Shown here: positions 1,837 through 24,628 of the stretch, piece after piece | How positions within the stretch are numbered: the stretch's first letter is position 1 | Layout of the letters: every line of letters begins with the position of its first letter | NCBI GenBank assembly: GCA_012839215.1 | Contig: DUNV01000088.1 | Coordinates: 1-34,277 of the forward strand | DNA from: Bacillota bacterium | GTDB lineage: Bacteria; Bacillota; Dethiobacteria; DTU022; UBA8154 | Reading direction: 5' to 3' | DNA length: 34,277 nucleotides | The notes under the pieces: model-generated | Told to the model about the DNA's origin: nothing | Databases searched by the model: none | Seen by the model: the letters and a program-made list of their open reading frames with translations, nothing else | Made by a program: the position numbers and the translations under genes

Positions 1837-2202
1837 TCATTGTTTGGCCCTAAAATCCTCAATGGCTTTGTGTAACGCATCGGCTGCAAGGTTGGAACAA
1901 TGCAATTTTGGAGCCGGAAGCCCGCCCAATTCCTCAGCCACATCCTTGTTGGTAATCAGCAAGGCCTCATCCAAGGTTTTCCCCTTAACCATTTCAGTCA
2001 GGGCACTGCTGCTGGCAATAGCCGCTCCACAACCAAAGGTAAGAAATTTAATATCCTGAATAATATTGTCCTCTACCTTGATAAAAATTTTCATAATATC
2101 ACCGCAACGCATATTTCCTACCTCACCTACACCTCCGGGGTCAACCATTTCCCCCACATTTCGTGGATTTTGGAAATGTTCCATTACTTTTTCGTTGTAC
2201 AT
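1837..2202 (-). CDS. iscU: IscU/NifU-type iron-sulfur cluster scaffold protein
   Basis: Scaffold on which [2Fe-2S]/[4Fe-4S] clusters are built before transfer to client proteins. The protein is 121 residues, the usual size for stand-alone IscU. The three cluster-binding Cys and the conserved Asp are present: RCGD (Cys33, Asp35), FGCGAAIASSS (Cys58) and KLHCSNLA (Cys102). The ATG at 2202 is chosen because GAGGAGGGG lies 8 nt before it; the frame is open 16 codons further up, but without a better signal. It follows nifS by about 50 nt and the Rrf2 regulator in the same direction, so it is probably co-transcribed with its sulfur donor. Confidence 0.95.
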   Translation of the reverse strand: MYNEKVMEHFQNPRNVGEMVDPGGVGEVGNMRCGDIMKIFIKVEDNIIQDIKFLTFGCGAAIASSSALTEMVKGKTLDEALLITNKDVAEELGGLPAPKLHCSNLAADALHKAIEDFRAKQ

Positions 2203-2250
2203 ATTATCCCCTCCTCGGGTGGCACTTCGCTGCTGCCTTTTTCCCGGCAA

Positions 2251-3408
2251 CTATTTTCTGTAGATTGGAGACATGGCCCTTAAATTGTGGGCCGTTTCCC
2301 GAACGGCCTCCAGCGTATAATCGATATCCTCGGGTGTGTTATCCCTACCCAAGGTAAAACGAAGGGAGCCCTGGGCAGTCTGATGATCGAGTCCCATGGC
2401 CAGAAGAACATGGGAAGGATCGAGCGAGCCCGCTGTGCAGGCCGACCCGCTGGAAAGGGCGATACCTTTTAGATCGAGATGCAACAGCAAAGACTCCCCT
2501 TCAACAAAAAGAACGCTAACATTAATGTTGCCCGGCAGACGTTTTTCCGGGTGACCATTGAGGCGTACATCCCCTATCCGCAGCAACCCCGGGATGAGCT
2601 GATCCCGCAGGCGGAGAAGCTTTTCCCTATTTGCCGGCATATTGGCAACAGCAAGTTCTATTGCCTTGCCAAGACCCACAATACCGGGCATGTTTTCCGT
2701 CCCCGGCCGCAGTTTTCTTTCCTGCCCACCACCATAACAAATCTGCTCCAGTTTGGTTTTCCTGCGCTGGTATAGAACACCAACACCCTTGGGACCATAA
2801 AATTTATGGGCGGAAAGGGAAAGAAAGTCAATGGGTTGGCTCTGCAGATTAAAATGGATATGCCCGATTGCCTGGACGGCGTCGGTATGAAAGTAGACCC
2901 CCTTTTCCCGGCAAACCCCGCCAATTTCCTCAAAAGGCATGATGGTTCCAACCTCATTATTCGCAGTCATAATACTCACGAGAATGGTCTGTTCTGTAAT
3001 GGCATCTTCCACCTGCTGCGGCGATACCATGCCATATTCATCCACAGGCAGGATAGTAATATCGTAGCCGCTTTTTCCCAAAAATTTGACGGTATCAAGC
3101 ACGGCATGGTGTTCGACAGCACTGGTTATAATATGGTTTTTCCCGGGCGGGGAACCCTTAGCAACCCCGATAATGGCAAGGTTATTGGCCTCTGTCCCAC
3201 CGGAGGTGAAAAGAATCTCTTCCGGGGCACAGCCCAGGCAAGAAGCAGTTTTTTCCCTGGCAACATCAAGGGCTTTGAGCGATTCCCGGCCAAAGAAATG
3301 CAGGCTAGATGGATTCCCATATTTTTCCCCCAAAAAGGGAAGCATTGCTTCCAGCACTTCTTCTCTCATTGGAGTTGTGGCACCGTGATCCATATAAATT
3401 CTTTTCAC
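2251..3408 (-). CDS. nifS: Cysteine desulfurase (NifS/IscS family)
   Basis: PLP enzyme that takes sulfur from cysteine, yielding alanine and an enzyme persulfide passed to the scaffold. At 385 residues it is full length. Key sites are FTSGGTEANN (67-76), EHHAV (99-103), SAHKFYGPKGVG with the PLP lysine Lys202, and the mobile-loop SSGSACTAG with catalytic Cys324. The short loop around the active Cys is the group I (IscS/NifS) form rather than SufS. Start ATG at 3408 with an AGGAGG about 12 nt upstream. It lies between an Rrf2 regulator and iscU, forming a three-gene cluster-assembly unit. Confidence 0.96.
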   Translation of the reverse strand: MKRIYMDHGATTPMREEVLEAMLPFLGEKYGNPSSLHFFGRESLKALDVAREKTASCLGCAPEEILFTSGGTEANNLAIIGVAKGSPPGKNHIITSAVEHHAVLDTVKFLGKSGYDITILPVDEYGMVSPQQVEDAITEQTILVSIMTANNEVGTIMPFEEIGGVCREKGVYFHTDAVQAIGHIHFNLQSQPIDFLSLSAHKFYGPKGVGVLYQRRKTKLEQICYGGGQERKLRPGTENMPGIVGLGKAIELAVANMPANREKLLRLRDQLIPGLLRIGDVRLNGHPEKRLPGNINVSVLFVEGESLLLHLDLKGIALSSGSACTAGSLDPSHVLLAMGLDHQTAQGSLRFTLGRDNTPEDIDYTLEAVRETAHNLRAMSPIYRK

Positions 3409-3439
3409 TGAAAAACAGCCTCCTCCCGCTTCAACAAAT

Positions 3440-3877
3440 TCATTTAACTGCTTGCTTGCATTCCATCATATCTTGCAGGGATATGCTCCCGAGCAGTTGG
3501 TTTATCTGATCCCGCAACCTTTCCCAAACCTTCCTAGCCATGCAATCCTCACCTTTGCCACAGGAAGGGACCTCTGCCCTTGCCCCATTTTCAGCAAGGC
3601 AGTCAACCGGTGTAATTGGGCCTTCAAGAACGCGAACAATATCCCCAACGAAAATTTCCCCGGGGGGCGAGGAAAGAACATAACCCCCTTTGACACCCCT
3701 TACACTGTAAATAAGGCCACTCCGCCTCAGCAATAGAAAAATCTGTTCAAGATATTGGCGGGAGATGTTTTCCTCCATGGCAATTCTGCTTAAAGGAACA
3801 GGGTCTCCATCACCATAATGCAAGGCCAGGTGGATCATGGCCCTGACCCCATATTCACCCTTGGCAGAAAGACGCAT
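3440..3877 (-). CDS. iscR: Rrf2-family (IscR-like) iron-sulfur sensing regulator
   Basis: Winged-helix repressor of the Rrf2 family, 145 residues. The N-terminus MRLSAKGEYGVRAMIHLA and the recognition region SRIAMEENISRQYLEQIF are typical. Cys93, Cys106 and Cys112 have IscR-like spacing for a [2Fe-2S] cluster, so it probably senses cluster status and controls nifS-iscU. It is the first gene after a clear promoter (3980-4008), with two inverted repeats between promoter and start; autoregulation is inferred. CymR-like Rrf2 proteins, which regulate cysteine metabolism, lack these Cys residues, so the IscR-like reading is preferred. Confidence 0.9.
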   Translation of the reverse strand: MRLSAKGEYGVRAMIHLALHYGDGDPVPLSRIAMEENISRQYLEQIFLLLRRSGLIYSVRGVKGGYVLSSPPGEIFVGDIVRVLEGPITPVDCLAENGARAEVPSCGKGEDCMARKVWERLRDQINQLLGSISLQDMMECKQAVK

Positions 3878-6826: not shown

Positions 6827-7861
6827 ATGTCAACACAGGCTGGTTTAAATGCGGGGAAACAGCATGTTGAGGAGATTGCAGCAAAGGCAAAAAGCGGGAT
6901 GGCCATGCTTCTGCTAAATATTGCCCTGATGATCGCCACCCTTCTCGGATTTGTTTATGGTATCATTTTTATGGGTACGGGCAACCTCACCCCGGGGATC
7001 ACATTAATCATTGTTTGTTCCCTGTATCTTTTCATTATCGGACCATTTCTATTTATAGGCCTGAAGGTGCTTAAACCCAACGAAGCACTCGTGCTGACCC
7101 TTTTTGGTAAATATTATGGCACGCTAAAGGGCGAGGGATTTTTCTTTGTTAACCCCTTTGTTGCCACCATCAACCCTGCGGCCACATCTACAACCAGTGG
7201 CGCGTTATTGGCGGAGCAAGCCGCCCCTTCCCGGGGCACGACCATGGCAAAAAACCTGCTCCCGGCAAGTAAGAAAATTTCCTTGAAAGTCATGACCCTG
7301 AACAATGATAAGCAAAAAATCAACGATCTGCTAGGCAACCCCATCATCATCGGCATCGTCGTCATTTGGAAGGTTGTCAATACTGCCAAGGCAGTTTTTA
7401 ATGTGGAAAACTATACGGAGTTTCTTTCCATCCAATGTGATTCCGCCCTGCGCAATATAGTGCGGCTTTATCCCTATGATACATCGGGCAATGATAATAA
7501 TGAAAAAACATTGCGCGGCAGCAGTGTGGAAATCGCCGCTAAACTACGGGATGAAATCCAATCAAAGGTGGAGATCGCTGGCCTGGATATTTTGGAGGCG
7601 AGGATCACCCATTTGGCCTACGCGCCGGAAATAGCCTCCGCTATGCTGCAAAGACAGCAAGCTTCTGCAATCATTGATGCCAGGCAAATGATCGTGGAAG
7701 GGGCCGTCGGTATGGTGGAGATGGCTTTGACCAAATTGAATGAAAACGGCATCGTGGAGCTGGACGAAGAACGCAAGGCAGCCATGGTCAGCAATTTGCT
7801 CGTTGTGCTCTGCGGTAACCGGGACGCCCAGCCGGTTGTCAATAGTGGTTCATTATACTAA
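6827..7861 (+). CDS. SPFH (stomatin/prohibitin, Band 7) domain membrane protein
   Basis: 344 residues. Two membrane segments (about 25-48 and 57-78) precede the SPFH entry [20 protein letters not shown] (81-100), followed by [10 protein letters not shown], a central SPFH core, and a helical C-terminal part rich in Ala/Glu ([20 protein letters not shown]-like region) that would oligomerise. SPFH proteins assemble large rings or scaffolds in membrane microdomains. The ATG is preceded by a weak GCGGGAA site. A 33-nt gap separates it from the ribbon-helix-helix-like gene, an arrangement I know from other Firmicutes, so a linked function is likely though undefined. Confidence 0.88.
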
Positions 7862-17056: not shown

Positions 17057-17113
17057 GATAGAACTCCTCCCTAAAGGCTAATATTTTCCCCTGCTAACCC
17101 AGTGTATCACGGG

Positions 17114-17198
17114 TGTATCACGGGGACGGTTCTTCTGTTGCATTACCCTGAAATAGAAAATGCAGAAAGTGCAACAGAAGAACCGTCCCCGTGATGCA
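17114..17198. repeat. Palindromic repeat unit, left copy
   Basis: 29-bp arms at 17114-17142 and 17170-17198, with one mismatch, around a 27-nt loop. The loop differs from that of the right copy at one base (ACCCTG against ACCTTG). Confidence 0.85.
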
Positions 17199-17209
17199 CG
17201 TCTTTTCCA

Positions 17210-17492: not shown

Positions 17493-17577
17493 TGCATCAC
17501 GGGGACGGTTCTTCTGTTGCATTACCTTGAAATAGAAAATGCAGAAAGTGCAACAGAAGAACCGTCCCCGTGATGCA
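17493..17577. repeat. Palindromic repeat unit, right copy
   Basis: Perfect 29-bp arms at 17493-17521 and 17549-17577 around a 27-nt loop. In RNA this would be a very stable hairpin, and it could terminate the hydrogenase transcript, which ends just beside it. Confidence 0.85.
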
Positions 17578-17598: not shown

Positions 17599-19320
17599 TC
17601 AGTAGTGGACGTGCAGCAGCTCCTTGGCCCTGCCCCTCAGGACGCCTTTATAAAGCCCGGCCAGGAGGGGATTTTCCTCGGATTGCCTTATTTGTGATAG
17701 CTTATCGGCCCGATAGAGGCCGTCGGAGCGGCTTTTCTTGACAGGTTTCAGGCCGAAGGGTTGCCCGCCACCACCGACGCAGCCGCCGGGGCAGGCCATC
17801 GCCTCAATAAAATCATAATGAACCTCGCCGGCCAGAATCTTTTTAATGATTTCATCTATATTTTTAAGCCCGTTGACCACGGCAATTTTTAATTTTTCAT
17901 CGCCGACAGTAACCTCCGCTTCCTTGGCCCCTTCCAGCCCCCGGATACCGGTATAGGCTATGTCCAGTATGGCCTCCATGCTTTTATCCTCGGCCACCCG
18001 CCGGATAACCGCCTCGCTTACACCGCCCGTGACACCAAAAATTACGCCTGCGCCGCTGTGTATTCCAAAGGGCATATCCGGGGCCTCAGGCTCCAGATCA
18101 GCAAAAACGATTCCCGCCTCCCTAAACATTTTGACCAGCTCCTGGGTGGTGATGACATGATCGATATCCGCAATGCCATCGCGGTAAAACTCTTCCCTGA
18201 CAGCCTCAAATTTTTTGGCCGTGCAAGGCATGATGGCTACATTGATAATTGTTTTGGAATCCCCCACGTCATGCCTTTTGGCATGCTCTTTAATGACCGC
18301 ACCGAGCATCTGCATTGGCGATTTGCAGGAGGAAACCAGATCCTTAAGTTCCGGATACCTCTTTTCCATAAAGCAAATCCAGGCAGGACAGCAGGAGGTA
18401 AACAGTGGGAGGTTTTCTTTACTGCGAAGCCTTTCCAGGAATTCGGCGGACTCTTCCATAACCGTCAGATCAGCTCCCAGGGAAGTATCATAAACCCTGT
18501 CAAAACCCAGCATTCTAAGCCCTGCCACAATTTTTCCCATGACATTTTCCCCGGAAACGAGGCCAAACTCTTCACCAAAGGCCACGCGGACTGCCGGAGC
18601 AACCTGGGCAATAACCTGCTTGTCCCCATCGTAAAGATCCTTCCAAACAGCCGGGCAATCACATTTAACCGTGATGGCCCCCGTCGGGCAGACCGCAGCG
18701 CACTGCCCACAGTGGACACAATCGGTTGCGATGATCGGGTCACCAAAGGCAGTGCTGACCATCATCCCAGAGCCCCTTCCTTTAAAATCTATGGCCCCCA
18801 CATTTTGCACCTCGGCGCACATGCGTACACAATCGCCGCAAAGAATACATTTATTGGGATTCCTCACGATAGAAAAGCTGGAATTGTCGATGGGAAGATC
18901 ATGCCTTTTGAAACTTTCCCCATTGAAACGGATACCGGTAATGCTGAAACGAATGGCCAGCTCCTGCAGGAGGCATTTTCCATTTTTGGGGCAGGTGGTA
19001 CAATCACGGCAATGGGATGAAAGCAGCAGCTCCAAGATCATTTTCCTGTGTTTTTGCAGTTTGGGAGTACTGGTCTTAACTTTAAGGCCATCTTTGGGGG
19101 GCGTCTGGCAAGAGGCCAAAATTTGCCCTCGCTCGTCTTCCACTACACACATACGGCAGGCACCATAGACCGAAAGTTCGGAATGGTAACAAAAAGTAGG
19201 AAGATCAACCCCCGCTTGGCGCACCACCTCGAGGACATTCCTTTCTCCATTCAGTTCTACCCTGCGCCCATCCACCCACATGAATTCTTTTTTTACAGTT
19301 TTCATTTCGTTATCATTCAC
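17599..19320 (-). CDS. hydA: [FeFe] hydrogenase catalytic subunit of the trimeric NAD(P)-linked type
   Basis: 573 residues, cytoplasmic. Domains in order: [2Fe-2S] ferredoxin-like (Cys44, 55, 58, 71), His-Cys3 [4Fe-4S] (His103, Cys107, 110, 116), two [4Fe-4S] clusters (about 158-168 and 201-211), then the H-cluster domain with TSCCPAW (308-314), MPCTAKKFE and MACPGGCVGGGGQ. All three H-cluster motifs are canonical, so it should be active. With HydB- and HydC-like partners just upstream it fits the group A3 enzymes that couple H2 to NAD(P)H and often to ferredoxin (electron bifurcation). Start is GTG 19320, 9 nt after AAGGAGG; ATG 19305 is an alternative. It starts 4 nt after the hydB stop and is the last gene of the operon. 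Confidence 0.95.
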   Translation of the reverse strand: MNDNEMKTVKKEFMWVDGRRVELNGERNVLEVVRQAGVDLPTFCYHSELSVYGACRMCVVEDERGQILASCQTPPKDGLKVKTSTPKLQKHRKMILELLLSSHCRDCTTCPKNGKCLLQELAIRFSITGIRFNGESFKRHDLPIDNSSFSIVRNPNKCILCGDCVRMCAEVQNVGAIDFKGRGSGMMVSTAFGDPIIATDCVHCGQCAAVCPTGAITVKCDCPAVWKDLYDGDKQVIAQVAPAVRVAFGEEFGLVSGENVMGKIVAGLRMLGFDRVYDTSLGADLTVMEESAEFLERLRSKENLPLFTSCCPAWICFMEKRYPELKDLVSSCKSPMQMLGAVIKEHAKRHDVGDSKTIINVAIMPCTAKKFEAVREEFYRDGIADIDHVITTQELVKMFREAGIVFADLEPEAPDMPFGIHSGAGVIFGVTGGVSEAVIRRVAEDKSMEAILDIAYTGIRGLEGAKEAEVTVGDEKLKIAVVNGLKNIDEIIKKILAGEVHYDFIEAMACPGGCVGGGGQPFGLKPVKKSRSDGLYRADKLSQIRQSEENPLLAGLYKGVLRGRAKELLHVHY

Positions 19321-19324
19321 TTTA

Positions 19325-21247
19325 TTACCCCTCCTTTATGGCGCCAAATTTGCATGTAGCCAGGCAGGCTTTGCATTTGATACATTTTGTCACATCAATA
19401 ATAAAGGTTTGCTTGACCTCCCCGCTGATGGCCCCAACTGGACAGACCCGGGAGCAGCGGGCGCAACCCCGGCAGAGCGGGGCATCGATATAGATCGTTT
19501 TAAGGGCCTCGCAGGTCCCCGCCGGGCACCTTTTTTCCTGTACATGGGCATTATATTCATCCCGAAAATATTTAATGGTACTGACGACCGGAGAACCGGC
19601 AGTTTTACCCAACCCACAAAGGGAGGTGGCTGAAATTGTATCTTCCAATTCAAGCAGAAGGTCAATATCCTTTGGCTCCCCCCGCCCTTCCACAATGCGC
19701 TCTAGGATGCCGAGCATGGCCCTGGTACCCTCCCGGCAAGGCACACATTTACCACATGATTCATTCTGGGTAAATTTCATAAAGAAACGGGCCACATCGA
19801 CCATGCAGGTATCCTCATCCATGACGACAAGACCACCGGAACCGATGATGGCCCCCACTTTTTTTAGTGATTCAAAGTCAAGAGGCAGATCCAAATGTTC
19901 GCCCGTCAGGCACCCGCCGGAGGGACCACCAATCTGCACAGCTTTAAAGGCCCTATCATTTTTTATGCCGCCGCCAATATCAAAAACAATTTCTCTCAGG
20001 GTGGTACCCATAGGTACCTCAATGAGTCCGGTATGCCTAACATTGCCGGTCAGGGAAAAAATCTTTGTCCCCGGGCTGTCGACAGTGCCGATTTTGCGGT
20101 ACTCGGCTGCCGTCATGTTAATAATTACCGGAACATTGGCAAATGTCTCAACATTGTTTAAAACTGTGGGTTTGCCAAACAGGCCCTGCTCCACTGTCCG
20201 GGGAGGTTTTACCCGGGGCATCCCCCTGTTTCCCTCGATTGAAGCCGTCAGGGCGCTGCCCTCCCCACAGACAAAGGCACCCGCACCCTGGTTGATATGA
20301 ATTGTAAAAGGAAAATCCGTTCCCAGAATGTGCTCACCCAAGAGTCCATATTTTTCGGCTTGCCGGAGGGCATTGTTGAGCCGCCTAATGGCCAGCGGAT
20401 ATTCTGCCCGGACGTAGATAAAACCCTCCCTGGCGCCCGTGGCCACACCAGCAACGATCATGCCTTCCAGCAATCTGTGGGGATCACCTTCCATGATGCT
20501 TCTATCCATAAAGGCGCCGGGATCCCCTTCATCCCCGTTGCAGACCACATATCTTACCGGCTCATCCTGCAGTCTAACCTGATCCCATTTCCTTCCTGTT
20601 GGAAATCCCCCTCCCCCCCGTCCACGCAAACCCGCCTCACATATCTCCCGGCAGATCCTTTCCGGTGAAAATTCAAAGAGGGCTTTTTCAAGTGCCGCGT
20701 AGCCCCCGCCGGCAATGTATTCCTCGATAGATTCTGCATCGCTTTCCCCACTTTGCGCCCGGACAAGGCCTATCTGTTTCTGATAAAAGGGAATTTCCTT
20801 ACGTGTAGGGTAAGTAGCCCCCCCCTGCCGAAAAAGCAGCCTTTCTACCGGACGATCCCCGACAATGCTTGTCTCCAGTATTTCTTGGCAATCTTCCAGT
20901 TTCACCTTAAGAAACAGCCAGCCGGCCGGCTCAATGCGGATAAGCGGCCCCATCTCACAAAAACCATGGCAGCCACTTTTTTTAATACCGATACTTTCCT
21001 TCCCCATTATTTCCACAGGCCGATCCTTCTTTTCCAGCTCCCTGCCCAATTCCACAGCACAATCAATACCACGTTCCCGGCAAAGAGATTTGAGCTTGTC
21101 ATATATTTCCAGAGAACCCCCGGCCACACAACCAGTTTCAGCACAAATAAGAACCTTCTTTTTCTGCCGGTTTAAAGTAGAAACGAAATTGTACCGGGCC
21201 TCCTGAAGATCCGCTCTAGAGGTGAATTTTTTCACGTTTCTTTCCAT
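19325..21247 (-). CDS. hydB: Hydrogenase NADH-binding subunit, NuoF-like (HydB/HndC)
   Basis: 640 residues. An N-terminal thioredoxin-like [2Fe-2S] domain (Cys35, 40, 93, 97) is fused to a NuoF-type flavoprotein with the FMN/NAD loop RGRGGGGFPTGRKW (about 209-222), a [4Fe-4S] site ESCGKCVPCREG, and a C-terminal two-cluster ferredoxin domain (CRGCARCSRVCP and CIKCKACLATCK). It carries FMN, binds NAD(H) and passes electrons to HydA. Because the thioredoxin-like part is fused, no separate HndB subunit is needed. ATG 21247 follows AAGGAGG by about 10 nt and overlaps the end of the preceding gene by 32 nt, suggesting coupled translation. Confidence 0.95.
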   Translation of the reverse strand: MERNVKKFTSRADLQEARYNFVSTLNRQKKKVLICAETGCVAGGSLEIYDKLKSLCRERGIDCAVELGRELEKKDRPVEIMGKESIGIKKSGCHGFCEMGPLIRIEPAGWLFLKVKLEDCQEILETSIVGDRPVERLLFRQGGATYPTRKEIPFYQKQIGLVRAQSGESDAESIEEYIAGGGYAALEKALFEFSPERICREICEAGLRGRGGGGFPTGRKWDQVRLQDEPVRYVVCNGDEGDPGAFMDRSIMEGDPHRLLEGMIVAGVATGAREGFIYVRAEYPLAIRRLNNALRQAEKYGLLGEHILGTDFPFTIHINQGAGAFVCGEGSALTASIEGNRGMPRVKPPRTVEQGLFGKPTVLNNVETFANVPVIINMTAAEYRKIGTVDSPGTKIFSLTGNVRHTGLIEVPMGTTLREIVFDIGGGIKNDRAFKAVQIGGPSGGCLTGEHLDLPLDFESLKKVGAIIGSGGLVVMDEDTCMVDVARFFMKFTQNESCGKCVPCREGTRAMLGILERIVEGRGEPKDIDLLLELEDTISATSLCGLGKTAGSPVVSTIKYFRDEYNAHVQEKRCPAGTCEALKTIYIDAPLCRGCARCSRVCPVGAISGEVKQTFIIDVTKCIKCKACLATCKFGAIKEG

Positions 21248-21731
21248 AGTTTCCAGCCTCCTTTTCCCTAATCTTATTCAAGCAGGCCAACGCCTTTTCG
21301 GGCGTCATTTCAGCAAATATTTGCTCGTTGATGGAAATCACGGGTGAAAGGCCGCAAGCCCCCAGGCAGGAAACGGTTTCTACAGTAAAAAGCATATCAT
21401 CAGTAGTTGTTTTATCCTTATCCAACCCAAGCCCCTCCCGGATTGTTTTAAGAATGGAGGCAGATTTGCGCACATGGCAGGCAGTCCCATCACAAACCCG
21501 GACAATATACCTGCCCTTTGGCCTTAGGGAAAAATTCTCATAAAAGGTCGCCACGCTATAAATCTTGGCCGGGCTGACACCCAGTTTTTTGGCGACATAC
21601 TCGAGAGCCTGCCGTGGCAGGTACCTGTACTCGTGTTGAATCTTTTGCATGATGGCAATCAAGGCCCTTTTATCACCATTACAACTTGTTAGAATGTGGT
21701 CCAACGTTGCTCGATCTTTTCCTTCCACCAT
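21216..21731 (-). CDS. hydC: Hydrogenase NuoE-like [2Fe-2S] subunit (HydC/HndA)
   Basis: 171 residues. Thioredoxin-like domain with Cys80, Cys85, Cys122 and Cys126 (VCDGTACHV and VSCLGACGL) for one [2Fe-2S] cluster, preceded by a helical domain (YLPRQALEYVAKKLGVSPAKI). It works with the NuoF-like subunit in NAD(P)H exchange. The ATG at 21731 follows GGAGG by about 9 nt. The gap to the CAP gene upstream is only 33 nt and I see no promoter in it, so the CAP promoter may drive the hydrogenase too. Order hydC-hydB-hydA is the common one for this enzyme. Confidence 0.93.
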   Translation of the reverse strand: MVEGKDRATLDHILTSCNGDKRALIAIMQKIQHEYRYLPRQALEYVAKKLGVSPAKIYSVATFYENFSLRPKGRYIVRVCDGTACHVRKSASILKTIREGLGLDKDKTTTDDMLFTVETVSCLGACGLSPVISINEQIFAEMTPEKALACLNKIREKEAGNYGKKREKIHL

Positions 21732-21764: not shown

Positions 21765-22436
21765 CTAAAGCGAGAGGAAATGCATGACAAAAACGACACC
21801 TTTATCCGGGCCCTTAACCACCCCAATACCAAGGTGGCTTTTTTTATCGCTCAGGATAGCCCCCCTATGACACTCGCTTTCCATCAGGAGACTAAAGGCC
21901 AGTTCGGGCTGCATATCTTTTGCCCTTAGGGTTCCAGCAAGATTTTCGCCGTAGGTGGAGAAAACCACACCCTTCCTGGAGGCCTCTTGCCCCGGCCTGC
22001 CCAACCTTGGTGAGTCGTGATCGATGTAACCATTGGCAAGCATATCCTCGCCCTTCTCTCTGGCAAAAGTAACCAGTCTTCTATCCATTTCATAGGGTGG
22101 CAAATTATGTTCCTTTCGTATCTTGTTAACAGATTCAAATAATGCTGTTTCGTAATCGGGGAGAAGAACGCAGCCATTTTCCCCAATAGCATAGCTATCT
22201 GGTATTGTAAAAATACCATCGGTCCCTTCCAGGCCCCGGGTAGGCATTTGGCAGAAGACAGATTTACCGCCATGATCAAGGAAACAAGGTAAAAGAACCA
22301 CAGAAAGGAACAGCAGCAGTAAACCTGAATTCACATATGTAGAATTGGTGTTAAAAAATCTTCCGTGAAAGGGATGAAATACCCTAAGTTTATAACCTGC
22401 TGATTCTAGGAAAGGAATGATTGTTAATTTTTTCAC
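21765..22436 (-). CDS. CAP/SCP-domain (YkwD-like) exported protein
   Basis: 223 residues. A basic N-terminus and a hydrophobic stretch at about 37-52 (SGLLLLFLSVVLLPCFL) indicate export or membrane anchoring; the N-terminus before it is longer than a usual signal peptide. The CAP domain spans about 93-222: ALFESVNKIRKEHNLPPYEM, LVTFAREKGEDMLANGYIDH, YGENLAG and HRGAILSDKKSHLGIGVV are typical of bacterial YkwD-like proteins, where the cavity His and Glu are kept. Function in bacteria is poorly known; spore and envelope roles are reported for some. GTG 22436 follows GAGGTG. It is preceded by a consensus promoter. Confidence 0.88.
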   Translation of the reverse strand: MKKLTIIPFLESAGYKLRVFHPFHGRFFNTNSTYVNSGLLLLFLSVVLLPCFLDHGGKSVFCQMPTRGLEGTDGIFTIPDSYAIGENGCVLLPDYETALFESVNKIRKEHNLPPYEMDRRLVTFAREKGEDMLANGYIDHDSPRLGRPGQEASRKGVVFSTYGENLAGTLRAKDMQPELAFSLLMESECHRGAILSDKKSHLGIGVVKGPDKGVVFVMHFLSL

Positions 22437-22509: not shown

Positions 22510-22539
22510 ATTATAACAGGGCATTTCCCCCGCTGTCAA
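22510..22539 (-). promoter_or_regulatory. Consensus sigma-A promoter of the CAP gene, possibly also of the hydrogenase operon
   Basis: Leftward TTGACA (22539-22534), 18-nt spacer, TATAAT (22515-22510): both boxes match consensus exactly. The leader to the GTG is about 65 nt. Confidence 0.8.
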
Positions 22540-22572: not shown

Positions 22573-22602
22573 GATATAGTAGGGGAATTCCCCTATTATA
22601 TC
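22573..22602. promoter_or_regulatory. 30-bp near-perfect palindrome in a divergent promoter region
   Basis: GATATA-G-TAGGGGAATTCCCCTA-T-TATATC is self-complementary at 28 of 30 positions, with no loop at its centre (22587/22588). It lies 34 nt upstream of the CAP -35 box and about 106 nt before the histidine kinase. The lack of loop suggests a protein-binding site or cruciform rather than a terminator. Confidence 0.6.
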
Positions 22603-22708: not shown

Positions 22709-24628
22709 ATGAGAAGATTAAATATCTGGCAGGTTTATTTTCTTGGTTTTATCATCTTAATTATCCTGGTTATCCTGATTACCAGTTTTGTGGTAATCGG
22801 GCTATTTAATACAGGGATTGAGCGGCAATCGGAGTTTACCATCAATAAGGAGCTCGATACGGCCAATAAAGTTTTCTATACCCAGCTGGACAGTTTGTTT
22901 CATTATTTTGATTCTCCTTCATTTCTGCTCTTTTTGCAGGACGCCCTTGGCAGGAAAGCAGACCTTGATGAGACATTGGCCGAAATCAGGGATAATCATG
23001 CATTAAGTTTTTTAATGATCGTTAAACCCGATGGGGCAGTTGTCGCCGGCACAAACAACTCTACAGCCCCTTGTGAAAAGTTGCCGGCTAGTGTCTTCCT
23101 CCAACGCTTCCTCGGCGAACAATCCCATAAGGGGATCATCCCCTTGGACAAACAATTTTTGGAAGCCGTCGGGCTGAGCAATAAGGCGAGGATTAGGGTT
23201 ATTCGGACCCCTGAGGCGAGGGAAGATGGCAAAACCAATGAGGCCAGGGGGCTTGCGCAGGTAATCTCTATCCCCCTTGGAAGCTTTGCCGGCAGCCCCC
23301 AGGCCTATCTACTGGGAGGTAAGCTAATCAACCGTAGCGTCAAGTTTGTCGATGAGGTATCCGACCTTTTAAAGGTTTACGCCACCATCTTCCTTGACGA
23401 TGTGCGCATTTCCACCTCCATACGCTTGGACAATGGGAACAGGGCCTTGGGAACAAGGGTTTCCCGAGAGGTAGCAGATACTGTATTGGATCAGGGAAAA
23501 CGCTACCTGGGAGAAGCAACGATCATTGGTGAAAAATATCTGACGGCCTACGATCCCATCCGCGATGATCAGGGAAATGTTATCGGAATTTTGTTTGTAG
23601 GCATACCCAAAGCCCCCTTTACAGCTATGAAGGAGAACACGTTAAGACAGTATATTTACATATCGTTATTCAGTATTTTTTTGGCACTGCTCATTGCCTA
23701 CACCCTCTCCCGCAAGATCACGGGGCCCCTGCAGCGCCTGACCAGGACCATGAAAAAGGTAGAGCTAGGGGATTTGTCCCAGAGGTTCGCCACTGAGCTC
23801 TCTTCCGGCACACACCCCGGAGCTGCCCTCCCCCATCGACCATCAGATGGGGTTCTATCGCCACCCCAGGATGAAATAGAAATGCTTGGTAATATTTTTG
23901 ACCAGATGATGTCCAGCCTACAAAGAAATTGGGAGGAAAATTTAAAATTGCAGGCGAACCTAGAGGAAAAGGAAAAAAACCGTCTAAAATTGCTCAAGAA
24001 ATTAATTTTTGTCCAGGAAGAAGAAAGGAAACGTGTTGCCCGCGAACTCCATGATGGGACAAGCCAATCCCTAACAAGCCTGATGTTGATTCTTAAGGCG
24101 ATACAAAAAAGCGAAGATCTGGAGGAAATCCGCAAGCTAGCCGAGACCTATAGGGGGGTTTTGTATAATACACTTGAGGAAATCCAGAAGATATCCTACG
24201 AGTTAAGGCCAATGACCCTCGATAAACTCGGAATTGATGAAGCCATTAAAAGATACATCGGGGATCTGGCCCAGCATTCGGATATAAACATTGTTTATGA
24301 TAATAAAGAATGCGTTTTTGCCAGCTTCGATCAGGAAATAGAAACGACCGCTTACCGTATCGTCCAGGAGGCACTAACCAATGCCGTCAGGCATGCCCAA
24401 CCCCAAAATATTGAGGTAGTGCTAAGATCCGATGATCAGGGCGTGGAAGTAATCGTTAAGGATGATGGCCTCGGATTTGAGGTGGAAAAAGTCACACAAA
24501 ATTGGGAAAACGCCCTCGGCATTTTGGGGATGATGGAAAGGGCATCGCTTCTCAGGGGAGAACTAAAAATTGATTCGGCCCCGGGCCGGGGAACCACGGT
24601 AATATTGCGCCTACCCCTTAACATATAA
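22709..24628 (+). CDS. Orphan sensor histidine kinase (extracellular sensor, HAMP, HisKA_3)
   Basis: 639 residues. Membrane segment 1 (about 9-32), an extracytoplasmic Cache-like sensor region (about 38-308, with FLMIVKPDGAVVAGTN and LTAYDPIRDDQGNVIGILFV), membrane segment 2 (about 314-334), a HAMP linker, then HisKA_3 with the phospho-His448 in RVARELHDGTSQSL and an HATPase domain (NAVRHAQ, KDDGLGFEV, GMMERASLLRGELKIDS). This is the NarL/LuxR-type kinase class. About 23 extra residues, Pro/Gly/His-rich (366-388), are inserted inside HAMP between its helices. No response regulator is encoded next to it, so its partner lies elsewhere. The signal is unknown; the neighbours (hydrogenase, CAP protein, glycogen genes) do not decide it. 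ATG follows GGGGGGGAG. Confidence 0.9.
   Translation: MRRLNIWQVYFLGFIILIILVILITSFVVIGLFNTGIERQSEFTINKELDTANKVFYTQLDSLFHYFDSPSFLLFLQDALGRKADLDETLAEIRDNHALSFLMIVKPDGAVVAGTNNSTAPCEKLPASVFLQRFLGEQSHKGIIPLDKQFLEAVGLSNKARIRVIRTPEAREDGKTNEARGLAQVISIPLGSFAGSPQAYLLGGKLINRSVKFVDEVSDLLKVYATIFLDDVRISTSIRLDNGNRALGTRVSREVADTVLDQGKRYLGEATIIGEKYLTAYDPIRDDQGNVIGILFVGIPKAPFTAMKENTLRQYIYISLFSIFLALLIAYTLSRKITGPLQRLTRTMKKVELGDLSQRFATELSSGTHPGAALPHRPSDGVLSPPQDEIEMLGNIFDQMMSSLQRNWEENLKLQANLEEKEKNRLKLLKKLIFVQEEERKRVARELHDGTSQSLTSLMLILKAIQKSEDLEEIRKLAETYRGVLYNTLEEIQKISYELRPMTLDKLGIDEAIKRYIGDLAQHSDINIVYDNKECVFASFDQEIETTAYRIVQEALTNAVRHAQPQNIEVVLRSDDQGVEVIVKDDGLGFEVEKVTQNWENALGILGMMERASLLRGELKIDSAPGRGTTVILRLPLNI

Follow-up and report, generated by a model that had tools for sequence, protein, structure and literature searches.

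Phosphorylated NreC binds a GC-rich palindrome ahead of the staphylococcal operons for anaerobic nitrate respiration, according to two reports (PMC8139620, PMC5694512). Within the literature searched, the NreBC(A) system is the nearest described analogue that we found for the locus discussed here. It likewise consists of a two-component kinase and a response regulator, but its kinase is an FeS sensor, whereas ours is a membrane sensor of the sCache_3 type; its targets are nitrate reductase genes and not those of hydrogenase and formate dehydrogenase; and, unlike in NreBC(A), the kinase and regulator genes lie apart. The NreC box is TAGGG-N4-CCCTA, a pattern for which a text search of the literature returned no match. 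The sites described below have a spacing of N5 upstream of fdhE, and N6 both in the window and at the NiFe-hydrogenase operon of one relative (G014), and so do not have the form of an NreC box.

The candidate regulator of our locus, RR1, has VraR, NarL and DevR as its nearest solved relatives, falls well short of the NCBIfam thresholds for NarL, NarP, RcsB and MctR, and is not a member of the named NarL, NarP, VraR, DevR or RcsB families. The best NCBIfam matches of the kinase and RR1 are MctS and MctR (NF052443, NF052445), with scores far under the cut-offs (135 against 700 bits for the kinase, 176 against 300 bits for RR1). Because both fall short, and because a second regulator, RR2, also matches MctR best, these hits indicate no membership and say little about pairing. 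From the comparisons below we surmise, with a probability of roughly 0.6, that the palindrome is the operator of RR1, likely the unlinked partner of the divergent orphan kinase.

The palindrome and its surroundings

The window, by which we mean the whole stretch of 34,277 nucleotides analysed (contig DUNV01000088.1 of assembly GCA_012839215.1; source genome G000), contains the following features.

17599-19320, minus strand: [FeFe] hydrogenase catalytic subunit (PF02906; TIGR02512 above cut-off)
19325-21247, minus strand: NuoF-like subunit (PF01512, PF10589)
21216-21731, minus strand: NuoE-like subunit of [FeFe] hydrogenase (PF01257)
21765-22436, minus strand: gene for a CAP-domain (YkwD-like) secreted protein (PF00188; TIGR02909 below cut-off)
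22510-22539, minus strand: promoter to the CAP/[FeFe]-hydrogenase genes, TTGACA (22539-22534), 18-bp spacer, TATAAT (22515-22510)
22517-22531, no strand: within the spacer of this promoter, a weak site resembling the operator (plus strand CAGGGCATTTCCCCC), 9.5 bits
22573-22602, no strand: 30-bp palindrome, 28 of 30 positions self-complementary (inverted repeat I3)
22580-22595, no strand: putative operator core TAGGGGAATTCCCCTA, with TAGGG and CCCTA as half-sites separated by 6 bp and with GGG-N5-CCC in two registers
22709-24628, plus strand: orphan sensor kinase (Pfam sCache_3_3, HAMP, HisKA_3, HATPase_c)

The top match of the catalytic subunit, NF040763 (group A6), reaches 689 bits and stays below the cut-off of 765. 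Downstream of the hydrogenase gene a hairpin repeat (CACGGGGACGGTTCT..TGTTGCA) is present twice (17113-17199 and 17493-17577); it is a dispersed REP/MITE-like element with 48 matches genome-wide at up to two mismatches (25 forward, 23 reverse) versus 0 in the control. Elsewhere in the window (1837-3877) the list of open reading frames places genes for an Rrf2-type regulator, a cysteine desulfurase and an IscU-like protein.

The first-pass annotation described a loop-free palindrome, self-complementary at 28 of 30 positions, between divergent CAP and histidine kinase genes. Computation bears this out: 22573-22602 pairs at 14 of 15 places without a loop, flanked by the CAP gene on the minus strand and the kinase gene on the plus strand. 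It is the longest palindrome of the window and the sole 30-mer scoring above 22/30. The further claim that it is far longer than chance symmetry holds within the window, where 0.0014 such palindromes are expected (0.086 per 2.06 Mb) and where the maximum in 20 first-order Markov shuffles was 26 in three and never 28, but it is weakened by similar dyads elsewhere: in 125,945 further bases of the same genome, 14 of 15 pairs are reached by two palindromes and 13 by another two. With two dyads just as good in that DNA, symmetry by itself is a weak sign of an operator. The two additional 14/15-pair palindromes (L236, 10214-10243; L287, 2936-2965) are unrelated in sequence.

The 16-bp core has one exact copy in the assembly, the remaining matches carrying 3 mismatches in 16, and a 26-bp version with up to three mismatches was found in only one of 71 genomes of the order, its own. 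Being single-copy and having no near copy in the 70 other genomes of the order, the palindrome is not a dispersed repeat; scattered copies at gene ends, which would have spoken against a regulatory site, were not seen. The aligned stretch of G002 retains no more than about half of the palindrome.

The promoter to the CAP/[FeFe]-hydrogenase genes matches the consensus at 12 of 12 positions, with TG ahead of the -10 element, and its counterpart in the aligned region of G002 matches at 11 of 12. A GGG-N5-CCC element is found in the spacers of both. The aligned spacer site of G002 scores 17.0 bits and a second site, 44 bp further down, 19.5 bits, where 1 Mb of random sequence holds one site at 17.0 bits and none at 19.5. 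In G005 a CAP gene comes after the kinase, and its promoter (TTGCAA-18-TATAAT) is arranged in the same way, with a 12-bit site in the spacer. Measured by arithmetic from its centre, the palindrome of the window is separated by 63.5 bp from the spacer site and by 121 bp from the start of the kinase gene, and it precedes the expected transcription start by about 84 bp.

The orphan kinase and RR1

No response regulator is found beside the kinase, either in the window or in the corresponding stretches of its relatives. Kinase orthologues occur in nine family genomes and are full-length except for pieces in G003 and G018. Four of the nine (G003, G006, G012, G014) follow hypE, a gene named by eye, and a TPR gene adjoins the kinase in G003 and G012. 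Transporters also lie beside some copies: MFS transporters in G006, G014 and G018 (family-tested for G014), a sodium/solute symporter in G013, and a transporter named by reading in G005. These neighbours hint at a small carboxylate as the signal.

RR1 is an orphan NarL-family response regulator of the source genome (G000:C38:8069-8716) and one of its GerE-domain proteins, of which seven pass the Pfam cut-off. It has no kinase neighbour; alongside it is a TPR gene, homologous to that beside the kinase in G003 and G012. With Response_reg and GerE domains in RR1, and HisKA_3 and HATPase_c in the kinase, the two proteins have two-component architecture. Orthologues of RR1 were identified in 13 of 23 family genomes at 61-83% identity and almost full length (that of G004 is a 66% fragment), and the next-best matches reach at most 45%. 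Nine of the 23 genomes carry both genes, four RR1 only, none the kinase only and ten neither (Fisher p about 0.0009, a value that ignores phylogeny and incomplete assemblies).

In 8 of its 13 genomes (G003, G005, G006, G011, G012, G013, G014, G018) RR1 comes after genes for formate dehydrogenase, and in G003 and G012 it precedes a NiFe hydrogenase, the identities being tested for the G000 and G003 copies and assigned by likeness for the others. A TPR gene is beside or near RR1 in nine of the 13.

The intact kinase and RR1 genes are never neighbours in the stretches examined, and in G013 they share a contig about 18 kb apart. In G008 (C182; L239, about 7559-7790), a kinase remnant with its middle deleted lies directly after RR1. 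It comprises the first ~35 and last ~45 residues of the kinase; its N-terminal part reads MKKNLSLWHKIFLGFITGALIIILITGFV, and its C-terminal piece is 60% identical to the G012 kinase; ahead of it is an operator-like site of 21.5 bits. The co-occurrence and the fossil are seen directly in the genomes, and RR1 is likely the partner of the kinase, encoded at an unlinked locus.

Putative operator sites upstream of fdhE

The fdhE stretches of the relatives carry TAGGG-N5-CCCTA. The lead to this gene was seeded by the core in the window, a match to which, with three mismatches, is found on contig C71 ahead of fdhE in G000. The name FdhE is based on sub-threshold Pfam and NCBIfam matches and on a neighbouring formate dehydrogenase that passes TIGR01553; the fdhE Pfam model PF04216 itself gave no match in the 23 genomes. 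On the same contig of G000 (C71; L228, 4938-4990) a stop divides the alpha subunit of formate dehydrogenase into two open frames, as would be expected of a candidate selenocysteine TGA.

Other genomes were scored within 800 bp upstream of fdhE, using a matrix that omitted the tested genome and its nearest relatives. A site of at least 15 bits was present in 10 of 11 genomes with RR1 versus none of six without it, although these genomes are not phylogenetically independent. The scores in bits with RR1 were 15.1 (G000), 19.3 (G003), 15.6 (G004), 19.1 (G005), 18.9 (G006), 16.5 (G008), 16.2 (G010), 19.0 (G011), 21.0 (G012), 8.7 (G013) and 18.9 (G014); those without RR1 were 12.6 (G007), 3.7 (G009), 3.8 (G015), 3.8 (G016), 7.0 (G017) and 1.7 (G022). 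In G013 the site is farther up, at -1015, where it precedes a second fdhE-like piece, and the 12.6-bit score of G007 appears, on reading, to lie within a coding frame. The upstream sequence available was 284 bp in G006 and 378 bp in G014. Genomes with no fdhE match stood outside the comparison (G002 and G018 with RR1; G001, G019, G020 and G021 without), and among the genomes lacking RR1 the orthologues are close in G016 and G017 (47-55%) and at 29-36% in G007, G009, G015 and G022. At fdhE, the presence of the motif tracks that of the regulator.

In G000 two sites lie 21 bp apart, and in several relatives the first dyad is accompanied by another at a distance of about 21 bp. The sequence flanking the G000 sites differs from that of the relatives; the sites are nonetheless retained. 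The DNA downstream of the fdhE sites showed no consistent promoter, so activation at this gene is a guess.

A second conserved block, TTATGGCAATATG, lies 65-86 bp below the operator upstream of fdhE (L246, L247, L248, L249, L255, L257). It matches at 13 of 13 positions in six genomes and at 11-12 in three more, occurs only in genomes with RR1, and is often followed by an inverted half; it may be another regulator site or a promoter element.

The palindrome as a probable member of the operator set

All ten half-site bases of the palindrome match the fdhE operator at N6 spacing. Only two such sites were found in 1.03 Mb of shuffled window, or by arithmetic about 0.0005 expected in the 272-bp gap. 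The N6 spacing also occurs at the NiFe-hydrogenase operon of G014, in a site of 20.9 bits. In the N5 spacing on which the matrix was trained, either register of the palindrome gives 11.5 bits, a level reached 43 times per random Mb; with N6 allowed it scores 12.7 bits (shuffle p 0.024 within a 300-bp stretch). The palindrome is an inverted repeat resembling those of the other putatively regulated promoters, marginally so in strict N5. The suggestion made for it at first, that a regulator, possibly the partner of the kinase, binds here, is favoured by the comparative evidence, although the window site itself matches weakly at the spacing used for training.

A site precedes the kinase in all five copies that have their own promoter, the G008 remnant included, the scores being 12.7 (G000), 19.5 (G002), 15.6 (G005), 14.6 (G013) and 21.5 (G008); the palindrome of the window is the weakest. 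Kinases behind hypE have none in four (6.3, 2.0, 3.6 and 4.7 bits). The comparison leaves aside G018, where the gene is cut by a contig end. The distance from site to kinase start is similar in G000 (121 bp), G005 (116.5 bp) and G013 (115.5 bp).

A relaxed pattern, RGGGRAANNCCC, was tried as a map of the regulon, giving 110 matches in G000 against 60 for the reversed control and 64 against 42 in G002. It was dropped because 27 of 29 readable matches, among 30 loci opened, fell in open frames of at least 163 aa. The strict pattern TAGGGDWWWHCCCTA with one mismatch gave counts in the 23 genomes that do not exceed those of the reversed pattern, from which it follows that the motif is not abundant and that its placement alone is informative. 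In G008 (C44; L303, 1666 and 3237), two intergenic 16.7-bit sites (TAGGGAACAACCCTAAT) lie 1571 bp apart and precede an apparent V-type ATPase operon, named by eye.

Alternative explanations

The palindrome might instead be the operator of a different regulator, for example RR2 or an unrelated dimeric repressor, which we consider unlikely though worth weighing. RR2 is a NarL-family regulator that pairs with a GAF-type kinase encoded next to tsf (G000:C47). In G000 the gene of that kinase is preceded by TAGGGGTTAACCCTA, at 18.1 bits; RR1 and RR2 share MctR as their sub-threshold best match; and no fdhE site equals the palindrome in length or symmetry. However, the box shared by the RR2 kinases is roughly TGAATTARGGNTTAACNCTTT and reaches at least 17 bits in only two of 13 genomes (G000 and G009; 14 stretches), whereas the TAGGG-N5-CCCTA of fdhE tracks RR1 and is missing from G017 and G009 despite the presence of RR2. 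RR1 is preferred for the fdhE sites because the RR2-kinase box differs and only those two genomes attain 17 bits. The TGAATTARGGNTTAACNCTTT box itself, which stands ahead of the GAF-type kinase gene in many family genomes (L296, L307-L319), is probably the autoregulatory site of this other NarL-type pair.

A role for the palindrome as a hairpin in RNA or DNA (a terminator, an element of an mRNA leader or a cruciform), and not as a protein site, is quite improbable. Its single strand folds as DNA at -9.0 kcal/mol (z -3.2), further long palindromes exist in the genome, and a scan flagged one terminator-like site where 0.7 are expected in shuffles; but the flagged tail, CCTGCTGTTT, lacks a proper U-run, the site lies between divergent starts and not at gene ends, and related sites vary on one arm only (e.g. 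CAGGG with CCCTT), which breaks pairing. An intrinsic terminator was rejected in view of this tail and of the divergent promoter region. An Rfam scan gave no match at the palindrome, finding only tRNAs. Symmetry arising by chance, with no function, is more improbable still. A single copy in a single species would suit it, as would an expectation of 0.086 per genome together with the two others found in 126 kb, but its ten half-site bases agree with an operator derived from sites in other genera, and the kinase genes of relatives also have an operator-like site at the same place.

Proposed role and significance

Returning to RR1 as the regulator, we infer binding, phosphotransfer from the kinase, regulatory sign and signal from the comparative pattern. 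A dimer of RR1 would bind both TAGGG half-sites of the palindrome, which would place the kinase under autoregulation and let RR1 modulate the CAP/[FeFe]-hydrogenase promoter on the other side. The palindrome lies about 63 bp, or six helical turns, upstream of the weak spacer site. At the hydrogenase promoter RR1 would more likely be a repressor, as suggested by the related sites within the -35/-10 spacer. The palindrome would probably be a docking site for a switch protein working with the neighbouring sensor gene on hydrogen and formate enzymes. It is ordinary in kind, a predicted transcription-factor site with a concrete regulator, sensor and target set.

To our knowledge, the choice between H2 and formate as electron sink in fermenting and syntrophic anaerobes is poorly understood, and the open-access literature listings searched yielded no regulator of these genes in Dethiobacter-like bacteria. 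The outcome names a putative regulator, sensor kinase, operator and target promoters in an uncultured anaerobe, which is a modest lead, and offers an example of pairing orphan two-component proteins by means of a gene fossil and a common operator. Much more tentatively, a split two-component system in the Dethiobacter-like family may sort electrons between hydrogen and formate: the same operator would repress at the [FeFe] hydrogenase, where it overlaps or adjoins the core promoter, and could activate at formate dehydrogenase and NiFe hydrogenase, where it lies upstream, and a single carboxylate-sensing kinase might in this way pick the carrier used by a syntroph.
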